Part shown: one piece after another, positions 1,400-62,528 of the stretch
Position numbering within the stretch: position 1 is the stretch's first letter
Layout of the letters: the number at the start of each line of letters is the position of its first letter
From: Hufsiella arboris
Lineage (GTDB): Bacteria; Bacteroidota; Bacteroidia; Sphingobacteriales; Sphingobacteriaceae
DNA: 64,000 nt
Direction of reading: 5' to 3'
Assembly (NCBI RefSeq): GCF_009834875.1
Contig: NZ_WVHT01000003.1
Coordinates: 62,001 to 126,000 of the forward strand
Program-made: the position numbers and the translations under genes
The notes under the pieces: generated by a model
Told to the model about the DNA's origin: nothing
The model's input: the letters and a program-made list of their open reading frames with translations, nothing else
The model's database searches: none

Positions 1400-1429
1400 C
1401 GAATATAAATATAATTGTCAAATCAACAA
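1400..1429 (-). promoter_or_regulatory. Promoter of the GH51 gene (TTG-N19-TATATTCG)
   Basis: On the minus strand a TTG (1427-1429) is followed after exactly 19 nt by TATATTCG (1400-1407), close to the Bacteroidota -33/-7 promoter (TTG or TTTG, about 19 nt, TAnnTTTG). The start codon lies 19 nt downstream. The spacer is occupied by the palindrome at 1407-1437. Confidence 0.55.
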
Positions 1430-1437
1430 TTATATTT
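1407..1437. promoter_or_regulatory. Putative AraR operator 1 (perfect 12-bp spaced palindrome)
   Basis: AAATATAATTGT (1407-1418) and ACAATTATATTT (1426-1437) are perfect inverted repeats separated by 7 nt. The palindrome covers the -33 to -7 interval of the GH51 promoter, the position expected for a repressor. Related sites with the same 7-nt spacer occur at 5594-5620 and 6467-6489, all in control regions of arabinose genes. Assignment to the linked AraR is inference. Confidence 0.65.
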
Positions 1438-1475
1438 TAGCATAAATTTCCTTTCGGTTGAATCAGTTTTTAAGA

Positions 1476-2516
1476 CTAACTCAGGAATTTATAAATGGTG
1501 GTACTTTTATAAATTTCACCCGGGTTTAAGGTAGTGGTTGGAAATTCAGGATGATTAGGTGAATCAGGAAAATGTTGCGTCTCCAGGCAAAGCGAAGTTC
1601 TGAAATCAACCGGTTTGCCAGATTTTCCAGGCATTTTGCCATCGAGAAAATTACCGGTATAGAATTGCATACCCGGCTCCGTTGTGTACACTTCCATTGT
1701 AATTCCGCTTTTGGGTCCTGTAACCGATGCTGCTTTACTTAATTCATTTCCTTTTTTATTGAGTACGTAATTATGATCATAGCCGCGGGCAATTTCCAGT
1801 TGCTTATTTTCGGCATCAATCCGTTCACCGATTTTTGTCTCGCGTCGAAAATCCAAAGGCGTCCCTTCAACTGTCTCGATACCAATTGGAATCTGCGTTT
1901 CATCTGAAGGCGTAAAACGATCAGCATTGATAGTTACCAGGTGATCCAGTATCGCGCCGCTTCCATCTCCGTTCAAATTAAAATAAGTATGATTGGTTAG
2001 ATTGAGAACAGTTGTTTTGTCGGTGCTTGCTTTATAATCTATCTCCAGGGAATCGTCGTCGTTAACCGTATAAATAACAGTGACCGCTAAATTTCCGGGA
2101 AAGCCTTCCTCGCCATCTTTGGACAAATAGTGCAATTTAAGCGTATTTTCATTGATCTGCTCTGCATCCCAAACCTGGTTGTGAAATCCGGCAGAACCAC
2201 CGTGCAGCGCGTTTTCCCCATTATTTATAGCCAGCGAATAGGTTTCGCCATTCAACGAAAACCTTCCTTTGGCAATTCGATTTCCGTATCTGCCGATCAA
2301 AGCTCCAAGATAATAGGTTTCGTTTTCGTAATGATGGATAGAATCTAAACCTGCTACCACATCAACGGTGGTATTATCATTTGCCGGAACGAGAATGCTA
2401 ACAATTCTTCCCCCAAAGTTAGTGATGGCAACCTCCATTCCTGACTTATTTCTAAGTGTAAAAAGATCCGTTTTTTTGCCGTTAAGTTCTTTTTGAAAAT
2501 TCGTTCTGCTAAGCAT
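1476..2516 (-). CDS. galM: aldose 1-epimerase (galactose mutarotase)
   Basis: Cytoplasmic-type mutarotase of 346 residues that interconverts alpha and beta anomers of aldoses. Residues of the family active site are visible: His105 in NALHGG, His176 in NHTYFNL and the catalytic Glu312 in CLETQHF near the C-terminus. A longer open frame reaches 2708, but its extra 64 residues read antiparallel-frame sequence inside the upstream GH43 gene. I therefore chose the ATG at 2514-2516 (MLSRTNF), 28 nt after the GH43 stop. It is the last gene of the GH51-GH43-galM operon and probably supplies the right arabinose anomer to the isomerase. No signal peptide is seen. Confidence 0.92.
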   Translation of the reverse strand: MLSRTNFQKELNGKKTDLFTLRNKSGMEVAITNFGGRIVSILVPANDNTTVDVVAGLDSIHHYENETYYLGALIGRYGNRIAKGRFSLNGETYSLAINNGENALHGGSAGFHNQVWDAEQINENTLKLHYLSKDGEEGFPGNLAVTVIYTVNDDDSLEIDYKASTDKTTVLNLTNHTYFNLNGDGSGAILDHLVTINADRFTPSDETQIPIGIETVEGTPLDFRRETKIGERIDAENKQLEIARGYDHNYVLNKKGNELSKAASVTGPKSGITMEVYTTEPGMQFYTGNFLDGKMPGKSGKPVDFRTSLCLETQHFPDSPNHPEFPTTTLNPGEIYKSTTIYKFLS

Positions 2517-2544
2517 AAGGGTATATTGATGTAACGCGATAAAG

Positions 2545-3570
2545 TTACTTCTTTTCACTATTCGTTTCTGAAACGTTTGGCCAGCCATCCTTCCACCTGA
2601 TCTGTTCAATGCGGAGTTTTGGTCTGCCGTTATCCGAAGCATCATAAGCATGAAATACCAGGTAGTCAACACCATCAAATGAAACAACAGCGTTATGTCC
2701 AACGCCATGCCACTGATCGTTTCCGGCTAAAACGATAGTTCCACCGCCAACATCCAGGTTGGTTCCATTTTTATCCTTAAATGTATCAGATAACTTTTTG
2801 GAACGCCCTACAATCATTTTATAAGTGCTGTTTGAACCCTTACAGCAATAATCGATCGATGCAAACAAATAAAAGTATGCGCCTTTTTGAAAGACAAACG
2901 GAGCTTCAATAGCGTTTCCTCCGGCGTCGGCAGGGTTACCGTCAACGGCAGGTGGATTTTCTTTAGATTTTTCAGTTTTACGGCTTGCAACGGTTGGTAT
3001 GCTTGTTAGATCCCCATCCGGTTCCAACAGATTTTTATTCAACCTAACCATTTTAATTCCGTCCCAAAATGATCCAAAAACCAGAAATGGCGTTCCTTTT
3101 TTATCTAAAATCAAATTTGGATCAATCGCGTTCCAGTTTGTTTTTCCAGGGACGGATTGTATCAACTTTCCGTGATCTGTCCATTTAAAATCGGCAGATC
3201 GCGGGTCGAGTGTCTTGTTGGTTGCAACGCCAATGCAGGACGTATTTTTCCCGAAAGCCGAAACTGAATAATACAAATAATATAAGCCGTTGTGAAAGGA
3301 AATGTCCGGCGCCCAGATGTGATTTTTAAATCCCGGCACTGTCTGAACCGCCCATTCCGGCGCAACATCAAAAACCGGCTTTTCACGATTCCAGTTTTTC
3401 ATATCAGGAGATGACCAAACGGAAATCCCCGGGCCCGTACAAAAAATGTAATAAGTACCATTTTGCCGGATCATCACCGGATCGTGAACCGAGATTTGTT
3501 TCGCTTCCTGGGCTATTAACCGGCAACAAATGAGCAGAAAACAGCCGACTAAATAAGCTATTCGTTTCAC
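2545..3570 (-). CDS. GH43 arabinan endo-1,5-alpha-L-arabinosidase (arabinanase-like)
   Basis: A 341-residue five-bladed beta-propeller glycosidase with an N-terminal signal peptide (about 20 residues, hydrophobic with a CC pair, possibly a lipoprotein). The GH43 catalytic triad can be placed: Asp30 in SVHDPVMI (base), Asp150 in NAIDPNLI (pKa modulator) and Glu222 in NAIEAPFVF (acid). FGSFWDGIK and VGHNAVV are also typical of endo-arabinanases. The start codon is GTG (3568-3570) and overlaps the upstream GH51 stop by 4 nt as GTGA, suggesting translational coupling. It cuts the alpha-1,5-arabinan backbone, or acts as an arabinofuranosidase; the sequence alone does not settle endo versus exo action. 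Confidence 0.88.
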   Translation of the reverse strand: MKRIAYLVGCFLLICCRLIAQEAKQISVHDPVMIRQNGTYYIFCTGPGISVWSSPDMKNWNREKPVFDVAPEWAVQTVPGFKNHIWAPDISFHNGLYYLYYSVSAFGKNTSCIGVATNKTLDPRSADFKWTDHGKLIQSVPGKTNWNAIDPNLILDKKGTPFLVFGSFWDGIKMVRLNKNLLEPDGDLTSIPTVASRKTEKSKENPPAVDGNPADAGGNAIEAPFVFQKGAYFYLFASIDYCCKGSNSTYKMIVGRSKKLSDTFKDKNGTNLDVGGGTIVLAGNDQWHGVGHNAVVSFDGVDYLVFHAYDASDNGRPKLRIEQIRWKDGWPNVSETNSEKK

Positions 3571-5537
3571 AACATTTTAATCTTAATCACATTGAATGAG
3601 TTGGGAGTCATCGCTAAACTCACCTTACCGCCGGAAATTTTGATTGCTTTATCCTGCGGACTTACAGCCTTCGGCGCCTGAAAAGAGTTTGTCTGGTTCA
3701 GGTTATCAGCACTTAAAACGGTTACAACGCCATTTTTTGAAAGTTTGACTTTTCCGCCTAACGATATTTCGGCATTCTGAGCAGAGGCATTCGAATTAAC
3801 CATTTTAATGATAAGCTCTTTCGATTTACGGTCAACAACAGCCGAGCCAAAAATACCGTCCGTACCCGCGATTGCCTTTCCGTCTCCGGTCATTGCTACA
3901 ACCTGAGTTCCTTTGTTTACAGAAAACAGCTTCTGTACATAATAATCAGGTGTTCCATACGAATTAAGATTATCCACCCAGATTAAATCCGGTGTCCATT
4001 GCCAACCATCAATATGCGCAAAAAGCGGCGCGTATGACGCCATATTTACAACGTCGGCATTTCTTTCAAGGCCGGTCATAAAGGCTGCTTCAGCGATGGC
4101 GCATTGAAGTGTGTTTTTATTATCAACGCTCACTGTTTTATCGCTTTGCGCTGCGTATTCACCGGCAAAAATCTTCGACCCGTTCCTTGGATAATTATCA
4201 TAACGCGATGCGTTTTGAAGGAACCATTCGGGCCTGCGGTAATAATGTTCATCGATGATATCCGCTTTCATTCCCCGCAATGTCGTGTTAAGGTAGTCGA
4301 AGCGTTCGCCGTCAGGATCAGTGCCCGAGCTGTTTACCAATTTAAAATCAGGATATTTGTCCTTAATAGCTTTGGTAAAGATTTTTAACCGCTCTACGTA
4401 TTGCGGTCCCCAGTTTTCGTTACCAACACCCATCATTTTTAAGTTAAAAGGTTTGGGATGTCCCATCTCCGCACGAACCTTTCCCCATTTGGTATCAGTG
4501 CTGTCATTTGCAAATTCTATCAGATCCAACGCATCCTGTACATATGGATCCAGCTCATCAATTGCGGCCACTTCGGCAGTATTGAATTGGCACGCCATTC
4601 CGCAATTCAAAATTGGCAGCGGCTGTGCGCCAATATCTTCAGCCAGCTGGAAATACTCGAAGAAACCCAATCCAAACGTCTGAAAGTAATCCGGAGCTGG
4701 CCGGTGTGCAAATTCAGTGTTCCAGCGATTGATGATCAGCTGCCGTTCCTCGATCGGCCCGATCGTTTTCTTCCATTGATACCGTGTGGAAAGTTCATGA
4801 CCTTCAACAATGCAACCACCCGGGAAACGAATAAACCCAGGTTTCATATCAGCCAGCAACTGAACCATATCCGAACGAAAGCCGCCTTTCCGACCTTTCC
4901 AGGTGTCTTGTGGAAACAATGAAATCATATCGAGATCAATCTCGCCGGATCCTTCAAACCAGATGTTTAGTTTCGCTTTTTGTACAGTTGCGTTACTTTT
5001 AAAACTTATTGACTGCTTTTTCCAATCACCCGTTTCCGAAGGTGAAAGCTCACCAGCACCAATAACTTTTCCCGTCGAATCCACTAATTCGGTGTGTAGC
5101 TTTAAACCGGGTGACTTTTGGCGATACATCACCGAAAAATCATAACCAAGATCTTTTTTTACACCCATCCCGCGAAATCCTTCATTGGTTAAACTCAGTG
5201 ATCCATTTACAGCGTTATTCGCCTTAACACGAATATATCTTGGATTCGCAGTATTTTCATCTTTACGATTTACAACCAAAATGTCGCCTTCATTGAATTT
5301 ATCTCTTTTGATTGTCCATCCCATCAACGGCTTATAAAATTCGAACGAACGATTCTTCACGAGTTCAGCGTAGATTCCTCCGTCAGCGCCCATATTAATA
5401 TCTTCAAAAAAGACACCCCACATGGTTGGTTGAACGTCCGCCTTTATTTCGTCGTACTGTACGTTATATTTTTTTTTTGTTTGCCCAATGGCACAGGTAG
5501 CTGCAAAAATCAGCAGCGCGGATAGCGATTTCTTCAT
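3567..5537 (-). CDS. alpha-L-arabinofuranosidase, GH51 with N-terminal carbohydrate-binding-like insert
   Basis: A 656-residue secreted enzyme with signal peptide MKKSLSALLIFAATCAIGQ. After a short N-terminal strand region, residues about 85-210 form a beta-sandwich (CBM4/9-like) insert. The (beta/alpha)8 barrel follows, with FIRFPGGCIVEG near 235-246, the acid/base Glu374 in GVGNENWG and the nucleophile Glu460 in KIFAGEYAAQ. The C-terminal part is a beta-sandwich. It differs in architecture from the GH51 at 1-1380 (insert present, longer), so the two are not recent duplicates. It is the first gene of a minus-strand operon with GH43 and galM and is divergent from araR across a 177-nt control region that holds operator 2. 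Confidence 0.93.
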   Translation of the reverse strand: MKKSLSALLIFAATCAIGQTKKKYNVQYDEIKADVQPTMWGVFFEDINMGADGGIYAELVKNRSFEFYKPLMGWTIKRDKFNEGDILVVNRKDENTANPRYIRVKANNAVNGSLSLTNEGFRGMGVKKDLGYDFSVMYRQKSPGLKLHTELVDSTGKVIGAGELSPSETGDWKKQSISFKSNATVQKAKLNIWFEGSGEIDLDMISLFPQDTWKGRKGGFRSDMVQLLADMKPGFIRFPGGCIVEGHELSTRYQWKKTIGPIEERQLIINRWNTEFAHRPAPDYFQTFGLGFFEYFQLAEDIGAQPLPILNCGMACQFNTAEVAAIDELDPYVQDALDLIEFANDSTDTKWGKVRAEMGHPKPFNLKMMGVGNENWGPQYVERLKIFTKAIKDKYPDFKLVNSSGTDPDGERFDYLNTTLRGMKADIIDEHYYRRPEWFLQNASRYDNYPRNGSKIFAGEYAAQSDKTVSVDNKNTLQCAIAEAAFMTGLERNADVVNMASYAPLFAHIDGWQWTPDLIWVDNLNSYGTPDYYVQKLFSVNKGTQVVAMTGDGKAIAGTDGIFGSAVVDRKSKELIIKMVNSNASAQNAEISLGGKVKLSKNGVVTVLSADNLNQTNSFQAPKAVSPQDKAIKISGGKVSLAMTPNSFNVIKIKML

Positions 5538-5593
5538 TTACTTTTTATGGTATAATTGGTAATTGCGTTTGAAAGCACAAGTTAAGTAAGTTT

Positions 5594-5620
5594 TTATAAA
5601 TGTCAATATTACATTTATAA
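5594..5620. promoter_or_regulatory. Putative AraR operator 2 in the divergent araR / GH51 control region
   Basis: TTATAAATGT (5594-5603) and ACATTTATAA (5611-5620) are perfect 10-bp inverted repeats separated by 7 nt. The half-site ATAAATGT resembles ATAATTGT of operator 1. Its position between divergent araR and the arabinosidase operon fits autoregulation plus control of the operon. A TACATTTG -7-like element for araR is seen at 5663-5670. Confidence 0.65.
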
Positions 5621-5714
5621 TTTCAGGCAATTGCAATGAAAACGTTGTTTAATCTGATTTTTTACATTTGCAAACTGTTCAAATAATATATATTGCAATA
5701 AATTACGAAAACCA

Positions 5715-6422
5715 ATGTCGCGATACCTAAAACAAACCCGTTATTTAGTTGCGGTTGACTCAATTATATTCGGGTTTGATGGCGAAAATTTAAAGCTGTT
5801 ACTTATCCACCGCGGTCTTAAACCAGAGAAGGGACGATGGAGCCTGATGGGAGGTTTTATCCAACCAGAAGAAGATCTTGAAAAAGCTGCCGACAGAATT
5901 CTTCATGAACTTACCGGATTAAAAGGCGTTTACCTCGAACAGCTTTACGCGTTTGGAAATGTACATCGTGATCCGACCGAACGAACGATTTCTGTAGCAT
6001 ATTTTTCCTTAATCGATATTCATCAATATGAAAAACAATTAAGCGATGAATATCATGCCGAATGGGTTCTGCTAAGCGAAATTCCCGACCTGATATTCGA
6101 TCATACAGAAATGGTTGAATTAGCGAAAAAGAAACTTCGCTATAAAGCAGCCATACACCCTATTCTTTTCGAATTGCTTCCGGAAAAATTCACGATACCT
6201 CAGTTACAAAATCTTTATGAAGCAGTGTATGACGCTTCCTTTGACAAACGGAACTTTAGCCGTAAGGTGTTGTCTACCGGACTTTTAGTCAAACAAAAAG
6301 AAAAAGATAAAGGCGGATCAAAAAAAGGGGCGTTTTACTACCAGCTTGACAAAGGCAGTTATGCCGACAAAATGCAGGCTTTCCTGAACTTTATTCCAAA
6401 TCCTGATAATTTGCTGATCTGA
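5715..6422 (+). CDS. araR: AraR-type transcriptional regulator, Nudix-like ligand domain plus winged HTH (NrtR family)
   Basis: A 235-residue protein. Residues about 8-140 have the Nudix fold, and residues about 150-225 match the winged-helix DNA-binding domain of the NrtR family (RNFSRKVLSTGLLV, then a basic stretch and FYYQLD). The Nudix box is degenerate: with Gly47, Glu53 and Arg61 aligned, the catalytic REUXEE becomes R-I-L-H-E-L (Ile62, Leu66), so hydrolysis is unlikely. Bacteroides AraR, an arabinose-responsive NrtR-family repressor, has this design. The neighbours (araB-araD-araA downstream, arabinosidases divergent) strongly support this role. It likely releases the three palindromes described here when L-arabinose binds. 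Confidence 0.88.
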   Translation: MSRYLKQTRYLVAVDSIIFGFDGENLKLLLIHRGLKPEKGRWSLMGGFIQPEEDLEKAADRILHELTGLKGVYLEQLYAFGNVHRDPTERTISVAYFSLIDIHQYEKQLSDEYHAEWVLLSEIPDLIFDHTEMVELAKKKLRYKAAIHPILFELLPEKFTIPQLQNLYEAVYDASFDKRNFSRKVLSTGLLVKQKEKDKGGSKKGAFYYQLDKGSYADKMQAFLNFIPNPDNLLI

Positions 6423-6466
6423 TTTTTGAAAAAAAATTCTTTTTAATTATTGGTATATCTAAAAAA

Positions 6467-6489
6467 ATAAGTGTTATTTAGACACGAAT
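6467..6489. promoter_or_regulatory. Putative AraR operator 3 upstream of araB
   Basis: ATAAGTGT (6467-6474), a 7-nt spacer, then ACACGAAT (6482-6489) matches the other two sites, with a less perfect right half. An overlapping perfect repeat, TGTTATT (6472-6478) with AATAACA (6487-6493), is also present. The site ends 7 nt before the araB ATG, so it must overlap the start of the transcript or act as a roadblock. Confidence 0.5.
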
Positions 6490-6496
6490 AACAATT

Positions 6497-8203
6497 ATGA
6501 ACCAAAACTTAGTTCTTGGAATTGATTACGGAACAGATTCTGTGCGTTCCATCCTTGTCGATGCCAGCAATGGCAGCGAGATTTCTTCAGCTGTATTCTT
6601 TTATCCACGCTGGAAAAAAGGCCTTTATTGCGAGCCTGGCCTTAATCAATTCAGGCAGCATCCGCTTGATTATGTAGAAGGCCTGGAGGCAACGATTAAA
6701 GAATGCATACAGAAAGCCGGCCCGGAAGCCGCGGCAAACGTTAGGGCGATTTCGATAGATACAACAGGATCAACGCCGGTAGCGGTCGACAGTTCGGGGA
6801 CTCCTCTGGCCTTGTTGCCAGAGTTTGCAGAAAATCCGAACGCAATGTTTGTCCTTTGGAAAGATCACACATCTGTAAAAGAAGCTGGCGAAATAAACAA
6901 TCATGCGACGAAATTTGATATAAATTATTTACAGTTTGTTGGTGGAATTTACTCTTCGGAATGGTTTTGGGCTAAGCTGTTACACATTTTAAGAATCGAC
7001 GAAAAAGTAAGAGAAGCCTGCAGCTCGTGGGTAGAACATTGCGATTGGATTCCATTTCTGCTTACCGGCGGAAACGAATCCTCTCAAATTAAGCGAGGCA
7101 TTTGCGCTGCCGGCCATAAGGCATTATGGGCCGAAGAATTTAAGGGTTTGCCGCCGGACGAGTTTTTTTCATCGCTTGATCCGCTATTGGCGTGCTTCAC
7201 AGAAAAATTGTTCACTTCTGTTTATACATCAAGCGAACAAGCCGGACATTTAAGCGAGGAATGGGCGGAAAAACTCGGACTCTCCACTGATATAACAGTT
7301 GGAATCGGCGCTTTCGACGCTCATATGGGTGCTGTCGGCGGTCAAATTGAGCCGTATCATCTAAGCAAAGTTATGGGAACTTCTACCTGCGATATGCTCG
7401 TAGCCCCTTCCGCCGAAGTTGATGGTGTACTTGTTGGCGGAATATGCGGGCAGGTACCGGGGTCCGTTATTCCGGGAATGATGGGAATGGAAGCCGGGCA
7501 ATCAGCATTTGGCGACACGTATGCCTGGTTCAGGAAAATCTTAGCTTGGCCGCTGGAAAATTTATTGTCGCAATCAAATGTAATTGATGGCGAAACCGCG
7601 AGTCGGCTTACAGAAGAAATCAATCATAAGATCATTTCCGAATTAAGTATCCAGGCGGCTAAAATTCCGCTTTCTGAGAACGACGAGCTGGCGATTGACT
7701 GGTTAAACGGAAGGCGTACGCCCGATGCCAATCAATTGCTTAAAGGAGCATTGTTTGGTCTTAATTTAGGCACTGATGCTCCGCGTATTTTCAGGGCACT
7801 CGCGGAAGCTACCTGCTTTGGTGCCAAAAGAATAGTTGATCGGTTCAATGAACAAGGAGTTCCTGTAAAAGGTCTGATCGGTCTTGGTGGCGTGGCAAAA
7901 AAATCATCGTTTATCATGCAGATGATGGCAGATGTAATGAATATGCCGATAAAAATCCACAGATCCGAACAAACCTGTGCGGCGGGTGCCGCTATGTTCG
8001 CGGCAACAGTAGCCGGTCTGTATCCAACTGTTGAAGATGCGATGGAAAATATGGGGCAGGGATTCGAGGCGGAATATCACCCGGATAAAGAAAGAGTCGG
8101 TGTTTATGCAAACAGATACCGGAAATTTATTATGTTATCCGATGATATAGAAAATCATATCATGGAAAAAAACGGAAAAACATATACCAATGAGTCAGTT
8201 TAA
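6497..8203 (+). CDS. araB: L-ribulokinase (FGGY family)
   Basis: A 568-residue FGGY-family kinase that phosphorylates L-ribulose to L-ribulose 5-phosphate with ATP. The N-terminal ATPase-fold signature LGIDYGTDSVRSILVD is at residues 5-20 and the second domain contains GLGGVAKKSSFIMQMMAD. AAGHKALW and GTSTCDM are typical of ribulokinases. Length matches bacterial AraB (about 560). It is the first gene of araB-araD-araA; its 3' end overlaps araD by 14 nt, which suggests coupled translation. Expression is probably AraR-controlled through operator 3 directly before the ATG. Confidence 0.96.
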   Translation: MNQNLVLGIDYGTDSVRSILVDASNGSEISSAVFFYPRWKKGLYCEPGLNQFRQHPLDYVEGLEATIKECIQKAGPEAAANVRAISIDTTGSTPVAVDSSGTPLALLPEFAENPNAMFVLWKDHTSVKEAGEINNHATKFDINYLQFVGGIYSSEWFWAKLLHILRIDEKVREACSSWVEHCDWIPFLLTGGNESSQIKRGICAAGHKALWAEEFKGLPPDEFFSSLDPLLACFTEKLFTSVYTSSEQAGHLSEEWAEKLGLSTDITVGIGAFDAHMGAVGGQIEPYHLSKVMGTSTCDMLVAPSAEVDGVLVGGICGQVPGSVIPGMMGMEAGQSAFGDTYAWFRKILAWPLENLLSQSNVIDGETASRLTEEINHKIISELSIQAAKIPLSENDELAIDWLNGRRTPDANQLLKGALFGLNLGTDAPRIFRALAEATCFGAKRIVDRFNEQGVPVKGLIGLGGVAKKSSFIMQMMADVMNMPIKIHRSEQTCAAGAAMFAATVAGLYPTVEDAMENMGQGFEAEYHPDKERVGVYANRYRKFIMLSDDIENHIMEKNGKTYTNESV

Positions 8204-8888
8204 CCGAATCAAGCAAGAAGCTTATGAAGCAAATATGCTTTTACCCAAGCTGAACCTGGTAATTTTCACTTTTGGCAATGTAAGCGCAGCCGATCGAAGT
8301 CTGGGTGTTTTCGCTATCAAACCAAGCGGCGTACCTTACGATCAGCTAAGTGCTGAAAAAATGGTGATTGTCGATTTTGACGGCAAGATAGTTGAAGGAC
8401 ATTTTAGGCCTTCCTCCGACACGAAGACCCACGCGGTACTTTATAAACATTGGGAGAACATCGGTGGAATTTCGCATACTCACTCTACGTACGCAACCGC
8501 ATGGGCTCAATCACAGCGTGATATCCCAATTTTTGGAACAACACATGCTGATCACAATACGGTTGACATTCCATGCGCTCCGCCGATGACTGACGAAATG
8601 ATCAGCGGGAACTATGAATATGAAACCGGTTTCCAGATCATGGATTGTCTTCGGGAAAAAAACCTAAGCCCGGCAGATCTGGAAATGATACTGGTGGGCA
8701 ATCACGCGCCATTTACCTGGGGCAAAAATGCAGAGAAAGCGGTTTACAATAGCGCTGTGCTTGAAAATATTGCTCAAATGGCTTTATTGACCGAGCAAAT
8801 TAATCCTAACGCCCCGAGACTAAAAGATTCACTTATCAAAAAACATTTTGAAAGAAAACACGGTCCGGACAGTTATTACGGGCAGTAG
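8190..8888 (+). CDS. araD: L-ribulose-5-phosphate 4-epimerase
   Basis: A 232-residue class II aldolase-family enzyme that converts L-ribulose 5-phosphate to D-xylulose 5-phosphate, feeding the pentose phosphate pathway. The Zn ligands His96 and His98 in SHTHST and His172 in GNHAPFTWG, and the catalytic Asp121 in TTHADH, align with E. coli AraD (95, 97, 171, 120) with a one-residue offset. The ATG lies inside the 3' end of araB (14-nt overlap). Confidence 0.96.
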   Translation: MSQFNRIKQEAYEANMLLPKLNLVIFTFGNVSAADRSLGVFAIKPSGVPYDQLSAEKMVIVDFDGKIVEGHFRPSSDTKTHAVLYKHWENIGGISHTHSTYATAWAQSQRDIPIFGTTHADHNTVDIPCAPPMTDEMISGNYEYETGFQIMDCLREKNLSPADLEMILVGNHAPFTWGKNAEKAVYNSAVLENIAQMALLTEQINPNAPRLKDSLIKKHFERKHGPDSYYGQ

Positions 8889-8954
8889 TTGATGCTTATT
8901 GAGTTAAGCAAGGTACATGATAAAAGAATGAACAATCGGATTGTTTTCGAAGGC

Positions 8955-9080
8955 GCTGTCCGAAGGCTACCTGACGCTGTCCGAGGGCTACCTGATGCTG
9001 TCCGAAGGCTACCCGACGCTGTCCGAAGGCTACCTGACGCTGTCCGAAGGCTACCTGACGCTGTCCAAAGGCTGACCGAA
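8955..9080. repeat. 21-bp tandem repeat (minisatellite), six units
   Basis: Five close copies plus one degenerate copy of gctgtccgaaggctacctga+c run head to tail: 8955-8975, 8976-8996, 8997-9017, 9018-9038, 9039-9059, and a diverged unit at 9060-9080. Because 21 is a multiple of three, all frames across it stay open. The plus frames read DAVRRLP or SEGYLTL repeats, and a minus frame reads VAFGQRQ. It lies in the 280-nt gap between araD and araA, inside an otherwise tight operon. It is GC-rich compared with its surroundings. Whether any frame is translated is unknown. Confidence 0.9.
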
Positions 9081-9168: not shown

Positions 9169-10659
9169 ATGATCGACTTAAAGAAATTTGAAGTTTGGTT
9201 CATTACAGGAAGCCAGCATTTATACGGAGAAGAAACTCTCAAACAGGTAGCGGAGCACGCTCAGCAAATTGCCAGCTCATTGAATGCCGAAAAGGAAATT
9301 CCCGTCCAGGTTGTTTTTAAACCTACGGTAAAAACTACCGAAGAGATTTATGAAGTTATTCAGCAGGCAAACGTTCATCCAAATTGCATCGGCTTGATCA
9401 CCTGGATGCACACGTTTTCACCGGCAAAAATGTGGATTCGTGGGCTGAATATTTTAAAGAAGCCACTTCTTCACCTGCATACGCAGTTTAACCGGGATAT
9501 TCCCTGGGGAAGTATCGATATGGATTTCATGAACCTTAACCAAAGTGCGCATGGCGATCGGGAATTCGGCTTTATGGTTTCCAGGCTTCGTTTAAACCGC
9601 AAGGTAGTAGTTGGACATTGGCAGGACCAGCAAACAGTAAAAGAAATAGGCTCATGGACCCGTGTAGCAGCAGGCTGGCATGATTGGCAGGGCGCCAAAT
9701 TTGTTCGCTTTGGAGATAATATGCGCTACGTTGCCGTTACCGACGGTGACAAAGTTGAGGCTGAAATGAAATTCGGCTTCTCAGTCAACACACATGGAAT
9801 CGGCGACCTTGTTCAGGTAATAAACGATTTGAGTGATCAATCGGTTAAACAGCTTCTGGATGAATACCAGGAAAGATACACAGTTTCAGATTCATTGCTT
9901 AAGGAAGGAGGCAATCATCAGTCGCTTATCGACGCTATAAAAATTGAGGCTGGATTGAGGTCATTCTTGCAAAACGGCGGATTTAAAGGATTCAGCGACA
10001 CATTCGAGGACCTGCATGGCATGATCCAATTGCCGGGCATTGCTGCGCAACGCCTAATGAATGAAGGCTATGGCTTTGCCGGCGAAGGCGACTGGAAAAC
10101 TGCTGCCCTTGTTCGTGCCTGCAAAGTGATGGGAAGCGGATTGCCGGGCGGAAATGCATTCATGGAAGATTATACTTATCATTTTGATCCCAGTAACTCG
10201 ATGGTTTTAGGCTCGCATATGCTAGAAATCGATGAATCGATAGCAAGCGGAAAACCAAAAGTGGAAATTCATCCGTTGGGAATAGGCGGCAAAGCTGATC
10301 CGGTTCGTTTAGTATTTAATGTTGCCGGCGGAAGTGCACTTAACGCATCACTGATTGATATGGGCAATCGTTTCAGGTTATTGATTAATGAAGTTGAGGC
10401 TGTTGAACCGGAGCACGACTTACCAAATCTTCCTGTAGCCAGGGTGCTATGGAAACCTTACCCGGACATGAAAACCGGTTGCGCCGCATGGATCTACGCT
10501 GGCGGAGCACATCATACCTGCTACAGTCAGAATTTATCAGCCGAGCAAATGCAGGACTTTGCCGACATAGCAGGAATTGAATCCATAACAATAGGAAGAG
10601 ATACAAAACTCGACCAGTTAAAGAAGGAGCTTCGCTGGAGTGAAGCAGCGTATAAATAA
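9169..10659 (+). CDS. araA: L-arabinose isomerase
   Basis: A 496-residue enzyme that interconverts L-arabinose and L-ribulose, Mn-dependent. The metal and catalytic residues fall at the same numbers as in E. coli AraA: Glu306 in FAGEGDWK, Glu333 in FMEDYTYHF and His350 in GSHMLEID, with the later His in [11 protein letters not shown]. It is preceded by the 21-bp repeat tract rather than abutting araD, so it may have its own promoter or need read-through. The hairpins after it suggest that the transcript ends there. Confidence 0.97.
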
Positions 10660-12133: not shown

Positions 12134-12168
12134 GTAAAAAAACCGGTTTGACAAAGTCAAACCGGTTT
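12134..12168 (-). terminator. Intrinsic terminator of the TonB-dependent receptor gene
   Basis: AAACCGGTTTGAC (12140-12152), a 3-nt loop and GTCAAACCGGTTT (12156-12168) form a perfect 13-bp stem; on the minus strand it is followed by a T-run (12134-12140). Confidence 0.9.
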
Positions 12169-61874: not shown

Positions 61875-62528
61875 ATGGAAACATCACAATCGCTGCCGGT
61901 TTTAAGCGCGGAAGAACAGCGGGTACTTGGCTCGCTGATGGAAAAAAGTAAAACGACGCCTGAATACTATCCCTTAACTTTAAACAGCCTTGTCACAGCT
62001 TGTAACCAGAAGTCCTCGCGGAAACCGGTTGTCGGTTACGATGAAGGTACGGTAGTTACCGCGCTAGATTCGCTCAAAAAGAAGGGACTTATTTCTACCG
62101 TTACTGGAGGCGCTAGTCGTGCCGTTAAATACAAGCACAACTTTGCAATTGTCTATCCGGTTATTCCGGCCGAGATTGCAGTTATTTGCCTGCTTTTATT
62201 GCGGGGGCCGCTTACCCCCGGAGAAATTAACTCAAACTCCGGCCGGCTGTTCGAATTCGAATCGCTTGAGGAAGTTCAGGAAATTCTGGAAAAACTATCT
62301 TTCTCCGATCCAAAATACATTATCCAGGTTCCTAAGCGTGCGGGTCAAAAAGAAATCAGGTATACTCACTTGTTGGGCGGTACCCCGGACTTTGATTCCA
62401 CCGAATTTGCCGAAGAAACTAATATTTCAAATAAATCGGATATTGAAAACCGGTTATCAAAAGTTGAAACTGAACTGGCCGAATTGAAGGAAGCTTTCGA
62501 GAAACTCATGAAAGAGTTAATGGGATAA
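61875..62528 (+). CDS. YceH family (DUF480) protein
   Basis: A 217-residue protein with the full DUF480 domain: LSAEEQRVLGSLMEKSKTTPEYYPLTLNSLVTACNQKSSRKPV at the N-terminus, then a second winged-helix-like half (VICLLLLRGPLTPGEINSNSGRLFEFESLEEVQEILEKL). A C-terminal coiled coil (about 190-215) ends the protein. Two winged-helix-like halves suggest nucleic acid binding, but the function is not known. Confidence 0.93.
   Translation: METSQSLPVLSAEEQRVLGSLMEKSKTTPEYYPLTLNSLVTACNQKSSRKPVVGYDEGTVVTALDSLKKKGLISTVTGGASRAVKYKHNFAIVYPVIPAEIAVICLLLLRGPLTPGEINSNSGRLFEFESLEEVQEILEKLSFSDPKYIIQVPKRAGQKEIRYTHLLGGTPDFDSTEFAEETNISNKSDIENRLSKVETELAELKEAFEKLMKELMG

Follow-up and report, generated by a model that had tools for sequence, protein, structure and literature searches.

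The question raised by the arabinose locus of Hufsiella arboris is what recognizes the three spaced palindromes that precede its transcription units. The locus occupies the start of the stretch analyzed (64,000 nucleotides, positions 62,001 to 126,000 of contig NZ_WVHT01000003.1, assembly GCF_009834875.1; hereafter the window), where a gene for an AraR-like regulator, araR, is found at 5715–6422 between the second and the third palindrome. It is very probable that the palindromes are the operators of this putative repressor, because the exact pattern shared by two of them exceeds its expected number in the genome, a refined pattern exceeds its control, a site with the same seven-nucleotide spacer (N7) recurs before araB in relatives, and the nearest relative of solved structure is AraR from Bacteroides thetaiotaomicron (BtAraR). 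The original prediction of a local AraR regulon was right in substance: palindrome sequences, coordinates, and arm lengths were all correct on recheck, the sites do precede three arabinose units, and the regulator is AraR-like. The finding is ordinary in kind, the regulon is wider than stated, and the protein is a new, diverged AraR; regulators of this kind, together with their operator, had already been described between 2013 and 2016 (PMC3878776, which predicted AraR, PMC4666351, and PMC5061871, all cited here from the parts available).

Predicted operator 1 (1407–1437) reads AAATATAATTGT-CAAATCA-ACAATTATATTT, with perfect 12-bp arms around N7; its core 23-mer (1411–1433) lies 30 bp ahead of the start codon of a gene of glycoside hydrolase family 51 (GH51). 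Predicted operator 2 (5594–5620), TTATAAATGT-CAATATT-ACATTTATAA, has perfect 10-bp arms around N7 and a core 23-mer at 5596–5618, and sits in the divergent gap between a second GH51 gene and araR. Predicted operator 3 (6467–6489, plus strand), ATAAGTGT-TATTTAG-ACACGAAT, also has N7, its arms match at six of eight positions, and it lies 7 bp ahead of the araB start codon. The consensus first proposed for all three, ATAAnTGT-N7-ACAnTTAT, comprises 14 fixed bases; scores are given as matches out of 14, the reversed pattern served as control, and expected counts were calculated from Markov models of orders 1–3 built on 223,501 bases of the genome. In the 4.8-Mb genome the exact consensus occurs only twice, as sites 1 and 2, against 0.05 expected; these two sites are not due to chance. 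With up to one mismatch, seven sites are found (control, none; expected, 2.0–2.2), and with up to two mismatches there is no enrichment in this genome (57 matches versus 67 in the control). Site 3 has two mismatches and can therefore not be claimed from the pattern; it needed other evidence.

That the palindromes are hairpins of terminators or RNA, or AT-rich inverted repeats that arose by chance, is extremely improbable. They are indeed AT-rich, and perfect N7 palindromes with arms of at least 10 bp occur three times in the window, other spacers from 0 to 15 giving 0–3 each, so that perfect arms alone are weak evidence; however, no terminator-like match overlaps the palindromes, sequence and spacer are conserved rather than symmetry alone, and the genome-wide counts exceed the control. 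Further perfect N7 palindromes lie between reading frames at window positions 12140 (11-bp arms) and 10762 (9-bp arms), and neither has an operator-pattern match within three mismatches.

Site 3 stands because it is conserved before araB. Among the 41 genomes scanned, 27 contain an NrtR/AraR-type match at 1e-30, and 15 of those (H. arboris included) reach 1e-71 or better. With a threshold of at least 11/14 matches and an intact TGT/ACA core, an N7 site precedes araB in 61 of 73 distinct regions (72 of all 84), while other spacers (3–6 and 8–12) give 0–4 of the 73. This spacing bears on the foremost alternative, namely that a different regulator with palindromic targets, above all a Crp-like protein, owns the sites. 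A predicted Bacteroides Crp-like motif, wwwTATGTTnTAnAACATAwww, which precedes araMPRDAB and other sugar operons, has similar TGT...ACA half-sites (PMC3878776), but by our count it spaces them by six, a spacing found in 1/73 araB regions, whereas BtAraR operators have N7 (PMC4666351); moreover, the sites are absent before distant araB copies. A different regulator, a Crp-like protein included, is thus a very improbable owner of these sites. Upstream matches of 10–14/14 accompany all 13 araB copies of at least 64 percent identity (own copy included), the core being intact in 11, while the five more distant copies (51–57 percent) all lack a site and score only 8–9/14. Taken singly, the araB matches of loci L103, L106, and L112 are not below 0.05 when compared with random first-order sequences. 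In genome G011, whose araB is 73 percent identical, site 3 is preserved letter for letter. araB is present at 41 of the 80 named AraR loci, and at 34 of those it is preceded by a site that reaches the threshold; the same count gives 4/40 before araA, 20/80 before araR, and 0/40 before araD, whose upstream region is often coding. Site 3 is the weakest palindrome, yet it has the best comparative support of the three: of the predicted operators it is the best conserved and most resembles the one published for Bacteroides, so that it should not be read as a weak copy. The shared half-site and N7 spacer emphasized from the start are kept in relatives.

These comparisons allow the consensus to be refined to WTAADTGT-N7-ACAHTTAW. 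The first version fits sites 1 and 2 exactly and site 3 with two mismatches; its n is not fully free, since this base of the left half is A, G, or T in 60/60 araB sites compared, and its outer bases are better written W. The refined pattern has six exact matches in the genome (control, none), all of them ahead of glycoside hydrolase, SusC, araR, or two-component regulator genes as judged by gene content: GH127 (C12:26039), GH51, araR/GH51, GH43, a SusC locus, and a hybrid two-component gene. The seven sites with at most one mismatch to the unrefined pattern also all precede hydrolase, transport, or regulator genes; besides sites 1 and 2 they lie at C5:81369 (esterase, Pfam PF00756), C23:129525 (GH43), C23:330658 and 330684 (two sites in tandem ahead of a SusC/SusD pair whose surroundings include GH43, GH127, and GH2 genes), and C45:296703 (the hybrid two-component gene). 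At zero or one mismatch in this genome, frequent occurrence at unrelated loci was not what the scan found. When one mismatch to the refined pattern is allowed, 14 matches are obtained versus 8 in the control, and they are mostly unreliable; one of them is inside a reading frame that precedes a sodium:solute symporter gene. By site position the candidate regulon includes araBAD, GH51, GH43, SusCD, and mutarotase genes, as expected of an AraR system. The word "local" in the original prediction has to be dropped: as read from the site positions, the predicted repressor would also act at other loci, and its regulon extends beyond the arabinose cluster. The predicted operator before the hybrid two-component gene is likely to be genuine, the closest homologue of that gene (62 percent, genome G014) having an upstream site of 12/14 with intact core; none of the other 18 homologues combines an intact core with at least 11 matches, L307 and L304 reaching 12 without the core.

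In the 14 relatives with an AraR match of 1e-71 or better, the refined exact pattern occurs 20 times versus once for the control (20 versus 0 in nine genomes, 0 versus 1 in five), and 17 of the 20 sites precede sugar genes or araR by gene content. Seven are next to araR/araB, three precede sodium:solute symporters, and one each is found at a further GH51, a GH127, a SusC-like receptor, a GH28, a GH31, a GH27-like, a galactokinase, and an AraC-type regulator gene; of the remaining two, one precedes a hypothetical/GMC oxidoreductase pair and the other has nothing within 350 bp. AraR-like sites before GMC oxidoreductase genes were seen in two genomes (L229:4000–4022 and L216:4022–4044).

The sequence of the linked protein identifies it as an AraR-like regulator of the NrtR family (Nudix plus winged helix), with the Pfam domains NUDIX (residues 11–130), NrtR_WHD (152–211), and AraR_C (149–226) all above cutoff. 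Its best solved relative is BtAraR (5bs6; 7.2e-65, 222 bits), to which 98 of 211 aligned residues are identical. AraR proteins are recognized by the replacement of two or three glutamates in the Nudix box GX5EX7REUXEEXGU; here the box is impaired (G47-x5-E53-x7-R61-I62-L63-H64-E65-L66-T67-G68-L69), two of the four glutamates being replaced (I62 and L66). The residues that hydrogen-bond arabinose in BtAraR, R34, R86, and H131, correspond to R33, R85, and H130 and occur in 80, 80, and 78 of 80 relatives, respectively. In the pocket, G47, G48, F49, and F129 are retained as G46, G47, F48, and F128, while F36 is replaced by L35 and V92 by T91. Among the six base-contacting residues, K179, R180, N181, and K204 are identical and K184R and R205K are conservative; further changes are R183S, S163P, and A208F.

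The genome encodes a second AraR/NrtR-type regulator (C2:58974; L066:6975–7631), which could be proposed to bind the sites in place of the linked protein. In this paralog, too, the recognition helix begins with DKRNF, its similarity to BtAraR is just as high (94/206 versus 98/211 identities; 200 versus 222 bits), and R34, R86, and H131 do not discriminate because it keeps them too. It lies, however, beside phosphofructokinase (pfkA), GAPDH (gapA), and BadF-type ATPase genes; its pocket differs at G48, F49, and F129, with Tyr at all three; the best pattern score nearby is 11/14, and 11–12/14 when four homologues are included; and the araB operator occurs where AraR, not a paralog of this type, is the neighbor. 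Binding by the paralog in place of the linked protein is therefore very improbable; the paralog is possibly a regulator of glycolysis. By reading frames, its neighborhood looks the same in three of four other genomes.

Several observations weigh against assigning the operators to the linked AraR. Overall similarity does not single this protein out, and the paralog even outscores it on Pfam AraR_C. Across the 41 genomes together, the unrefined pattern shows no enrichment when up to one mismatch is allowed (110 forward versus 121 control matches), and beyond H. arboris itself only G014 (15 versus 5) and G015 (8 versus 2) stand out. Many of the 41 have no AraR to bind the pattern, since only 15 match it at 1e-71 or better. 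The refined pattern was partly derived from sites later counted, so that its counts are not independent, and it has no exact match in five of the 14 AraR-bearing relatives. Just 20 of 80 named relatives have a site before araR itself, and seven of the 41 named araB loci fall below threshold. In four of these seven (L152, L153, L164, and L171) nothing site-like precedes araB, though all four carry AraR; in G038, AraR and araB share one locus and araB lacks a site; conversely, G022 has an araB site (11/14) and no AraR match at 1e-30. A separate observation concerns G020, where araD and araA fragments lie directly behind araR (L057:8615–9043) in a genome with no araB match at 1e-60, looking as if the araBDA operon had been deleted.

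From the observed sequences, their conservation and genome distribution, and the family of the protein, we infer binding, repression, arabinose as effector, and the promoter positions, and the BtAraR mechanism is taken by analogy as the best reading. The sugar-free AraR dimer would bind sites resembling the refined pattern and block transcription. At site 1 it would cover the −33 element together with the promoter spacer; at site 2 it would occupy the intergenic region from which araR and the GH51 operon diverge; at site 3 it would probably cover the araB −7 element, which the spacer of operator 3 may provide. Binding of L-arabinose in the pocket of the Nudix fold would rotate the winged helices and free the DNA, thereby inducing araBDA, araR, and the genes for arabinan hydrolases; this repressor would also work at the further loci. 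Bacteroidota promoters follow the motif TTTG/TAnnTTTG (−33/−7). A possible promoter at site 1 (1400–1430, minus strand) comprises a −33 element ATTG (1430–1427), a spacer of 19 bp, and a −7 element TATATTCG (1407–1400), with 8/10 matches to the motif. The proposal that site 1 exactly fills the −33/−7 interval was nearly right: the 23-mer overlies the −33 element and ends 3 bp before the −7 element. As 124 promoters in the window score the same or better on both strands, this overlap alone means little. The spacer of 38 aligned araB operators reads TTAWTTTG-like, with T in 66–76 percent of rows at 13–16 bp upstream, and the araB operator could hold both a −33 TTTG and a −7 box within it.

The half-site is DTGT here and GTGT in Bacteroides; site 3 is GTGT-N7-ACAC exactly, site 1 departs from it as TTGT/ACAA, and site 2 does so as ATGT/ACAT. 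In the complex of the Bacteroides protein with DNA, the leading G of GTGT is touched by Lys179 (PMC4666351). Across 60 AraR–araB pairs, Lys179 goes with G in 39 of 47 (A in 6, T in 2) and Asn179 with A in 12 of 13 (G in 1); both Asn clades have A, L132 excepted, and in the right half this base is C in 7 of 12 Asn-type sites. The tree shows just two changes of this residue, with one independent pair on starred branches, so that a sign test cannot reach significance and the raw table may reflect shared ancestry; covariation is suggestive only. Asp-type AraR copies, with a DDRNF helix, account for 28 of the 80 named relatives, none with araB in the stretch examined (among those unlinked to araBDA are L056, L167, L173, L182, L183, and L194), and 8 of the 28 have a ATAGTTGT-N7-ACACTAAA site about 70 bp upstream. 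Three genomes (G073, G085, and G089) hold an Asp-type copy and a separate Lys-type copy linked to araB. Some Asp-type copies adjoin putative ABC transporter genes. A shift of the operator code is a tentative and rather doubtful proposal: residue 179 would help to set the base before TGT (Lys mostly with G, Asn with A), helix and araB operator would have undergone at least two joint changes, and a duplicated Asp-type copy, located away from araBDA and seen mostly in Mucilaginibacter records, would have abandoned the arabinose operators in favor of its own targets.

The genes behind the predicted operators lie on both strands. On the minus strand, an alpha-L-arabinofuranosidase-like GH51 gene behind operator 1 (1–1380, cut by the window edge; Pfam Alpha-L-AF_C 3e-39, ASD1_dom 1.5e-07) is followed along the window by a galM-like aldose 1-epimerase gene (1476–2516; Aldose_epim 2.3e-91), an arabinan endo-arabinosidase-like GH43 gene (2545–3570; Pfam GH43 1.2e-52, NCBIfam AbnA 9.2e-91, below its cutoff), and the second alpha-L-arabinofuranosidase-like GH51 gene (3567–5537; ASD1_dom 4.5e-60). 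On the plus strand, araR is followed by araB (ribulokinase, 6497–8203; PRK04123, 706 bits), araD (L-ribulose-5-phosphate 4-epimerase, 8190–8888; PRK08193, 350 bits), and araA (L-arabinose isomerase, 9169–10659; PRK02929, 825 bits), these three NCBIfam matches all lying above cutoff. The araD–araA gap contains a GC-rich tandem repeat (8954–9073; 21-bp unit, 5.7 copies), and a 27-base probe of it, allowing up to three mismatches in the whole genome, hits five places, all inside the same array.

The analysis extends to other families of the Bacteroidota a regulator known from Bacteroides and Prevotella; among the openly licensed papers listed by the searches, none dealt with AraR outside these two genera. 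It names predicted targets for the use of arabinan in a single genome and offers 60 natural protein–operator pairs in which the structurally understood contact of K179 to the base before TGT varies. Because a predicted operator precedes the hybrid two-component gene at C45:296703, AraR is suggested to stand above this regulator, a wiring not described in the available parts of the Bacteroides papers; if true, the site would link the repressor and two-component layers directly, with the one further homologue in support.

Two other branches of the family serve for comparison. Shewanella oneidensis NrtR (PDB 3gz5/3gz6) shares the family with the window protein (1.9e-25) but governs NAD metabolism and responds to ADP-ribose (PMC4666351), whereas the neighbors of the window protein are arabinose genes and its sequence is far closer to AraR. 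XylR of B. thetaiotaomicron (BT0791) represents a second sugar-linked NrtR branch in Bacteroidetes (PMC4666351, PMC3878776) and, unlike the window protein, is linked to xylose genes. The closest counterpart is BtAraR (BT0354; PDB 5bs6, 5dd4, 5ddg, and 5deq), a dimer that recognizes operators of the form GTGT-N7-ACAC and leaves them in response to L-arabinose, binding being impaired at 0.01 mM and abolished at 0.5 mM; the distance between its two recognition helices shrinks from about 30 to 14 angstroms (PMC4666351). Common to both systems are a Nudix-like and winged-helix protein linked to araB, araD, and araA, the N7 between TGT and ACA, targets that include araBAD, GH51, GH43, and SusCD (here by site position), and tandem sites before one operon. 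Several differences exist nonetheless. The half-site here is accompanied by outer WTAA, and the starts of the tandem sites at C23 lie 26 bp apart versus 24 bp, by our count, in the published araM oligonucleotide. The six base-contacting residues are absolutely conserved in the AraR orthologs compared in PMC4666351, whereas the window protein carries K184R and R205K in addition to the other substitutions named above. Finally, in H. arboris araB has a predicted operator of its own and one predicted site precedes a hybrid two-component gene. In living B. thetaiotaomicron cells, araM and some of the arabinan locus are repressed by BtAraR, and the hybrid two-component protein BT0366 acts as activator (PMC5061871).

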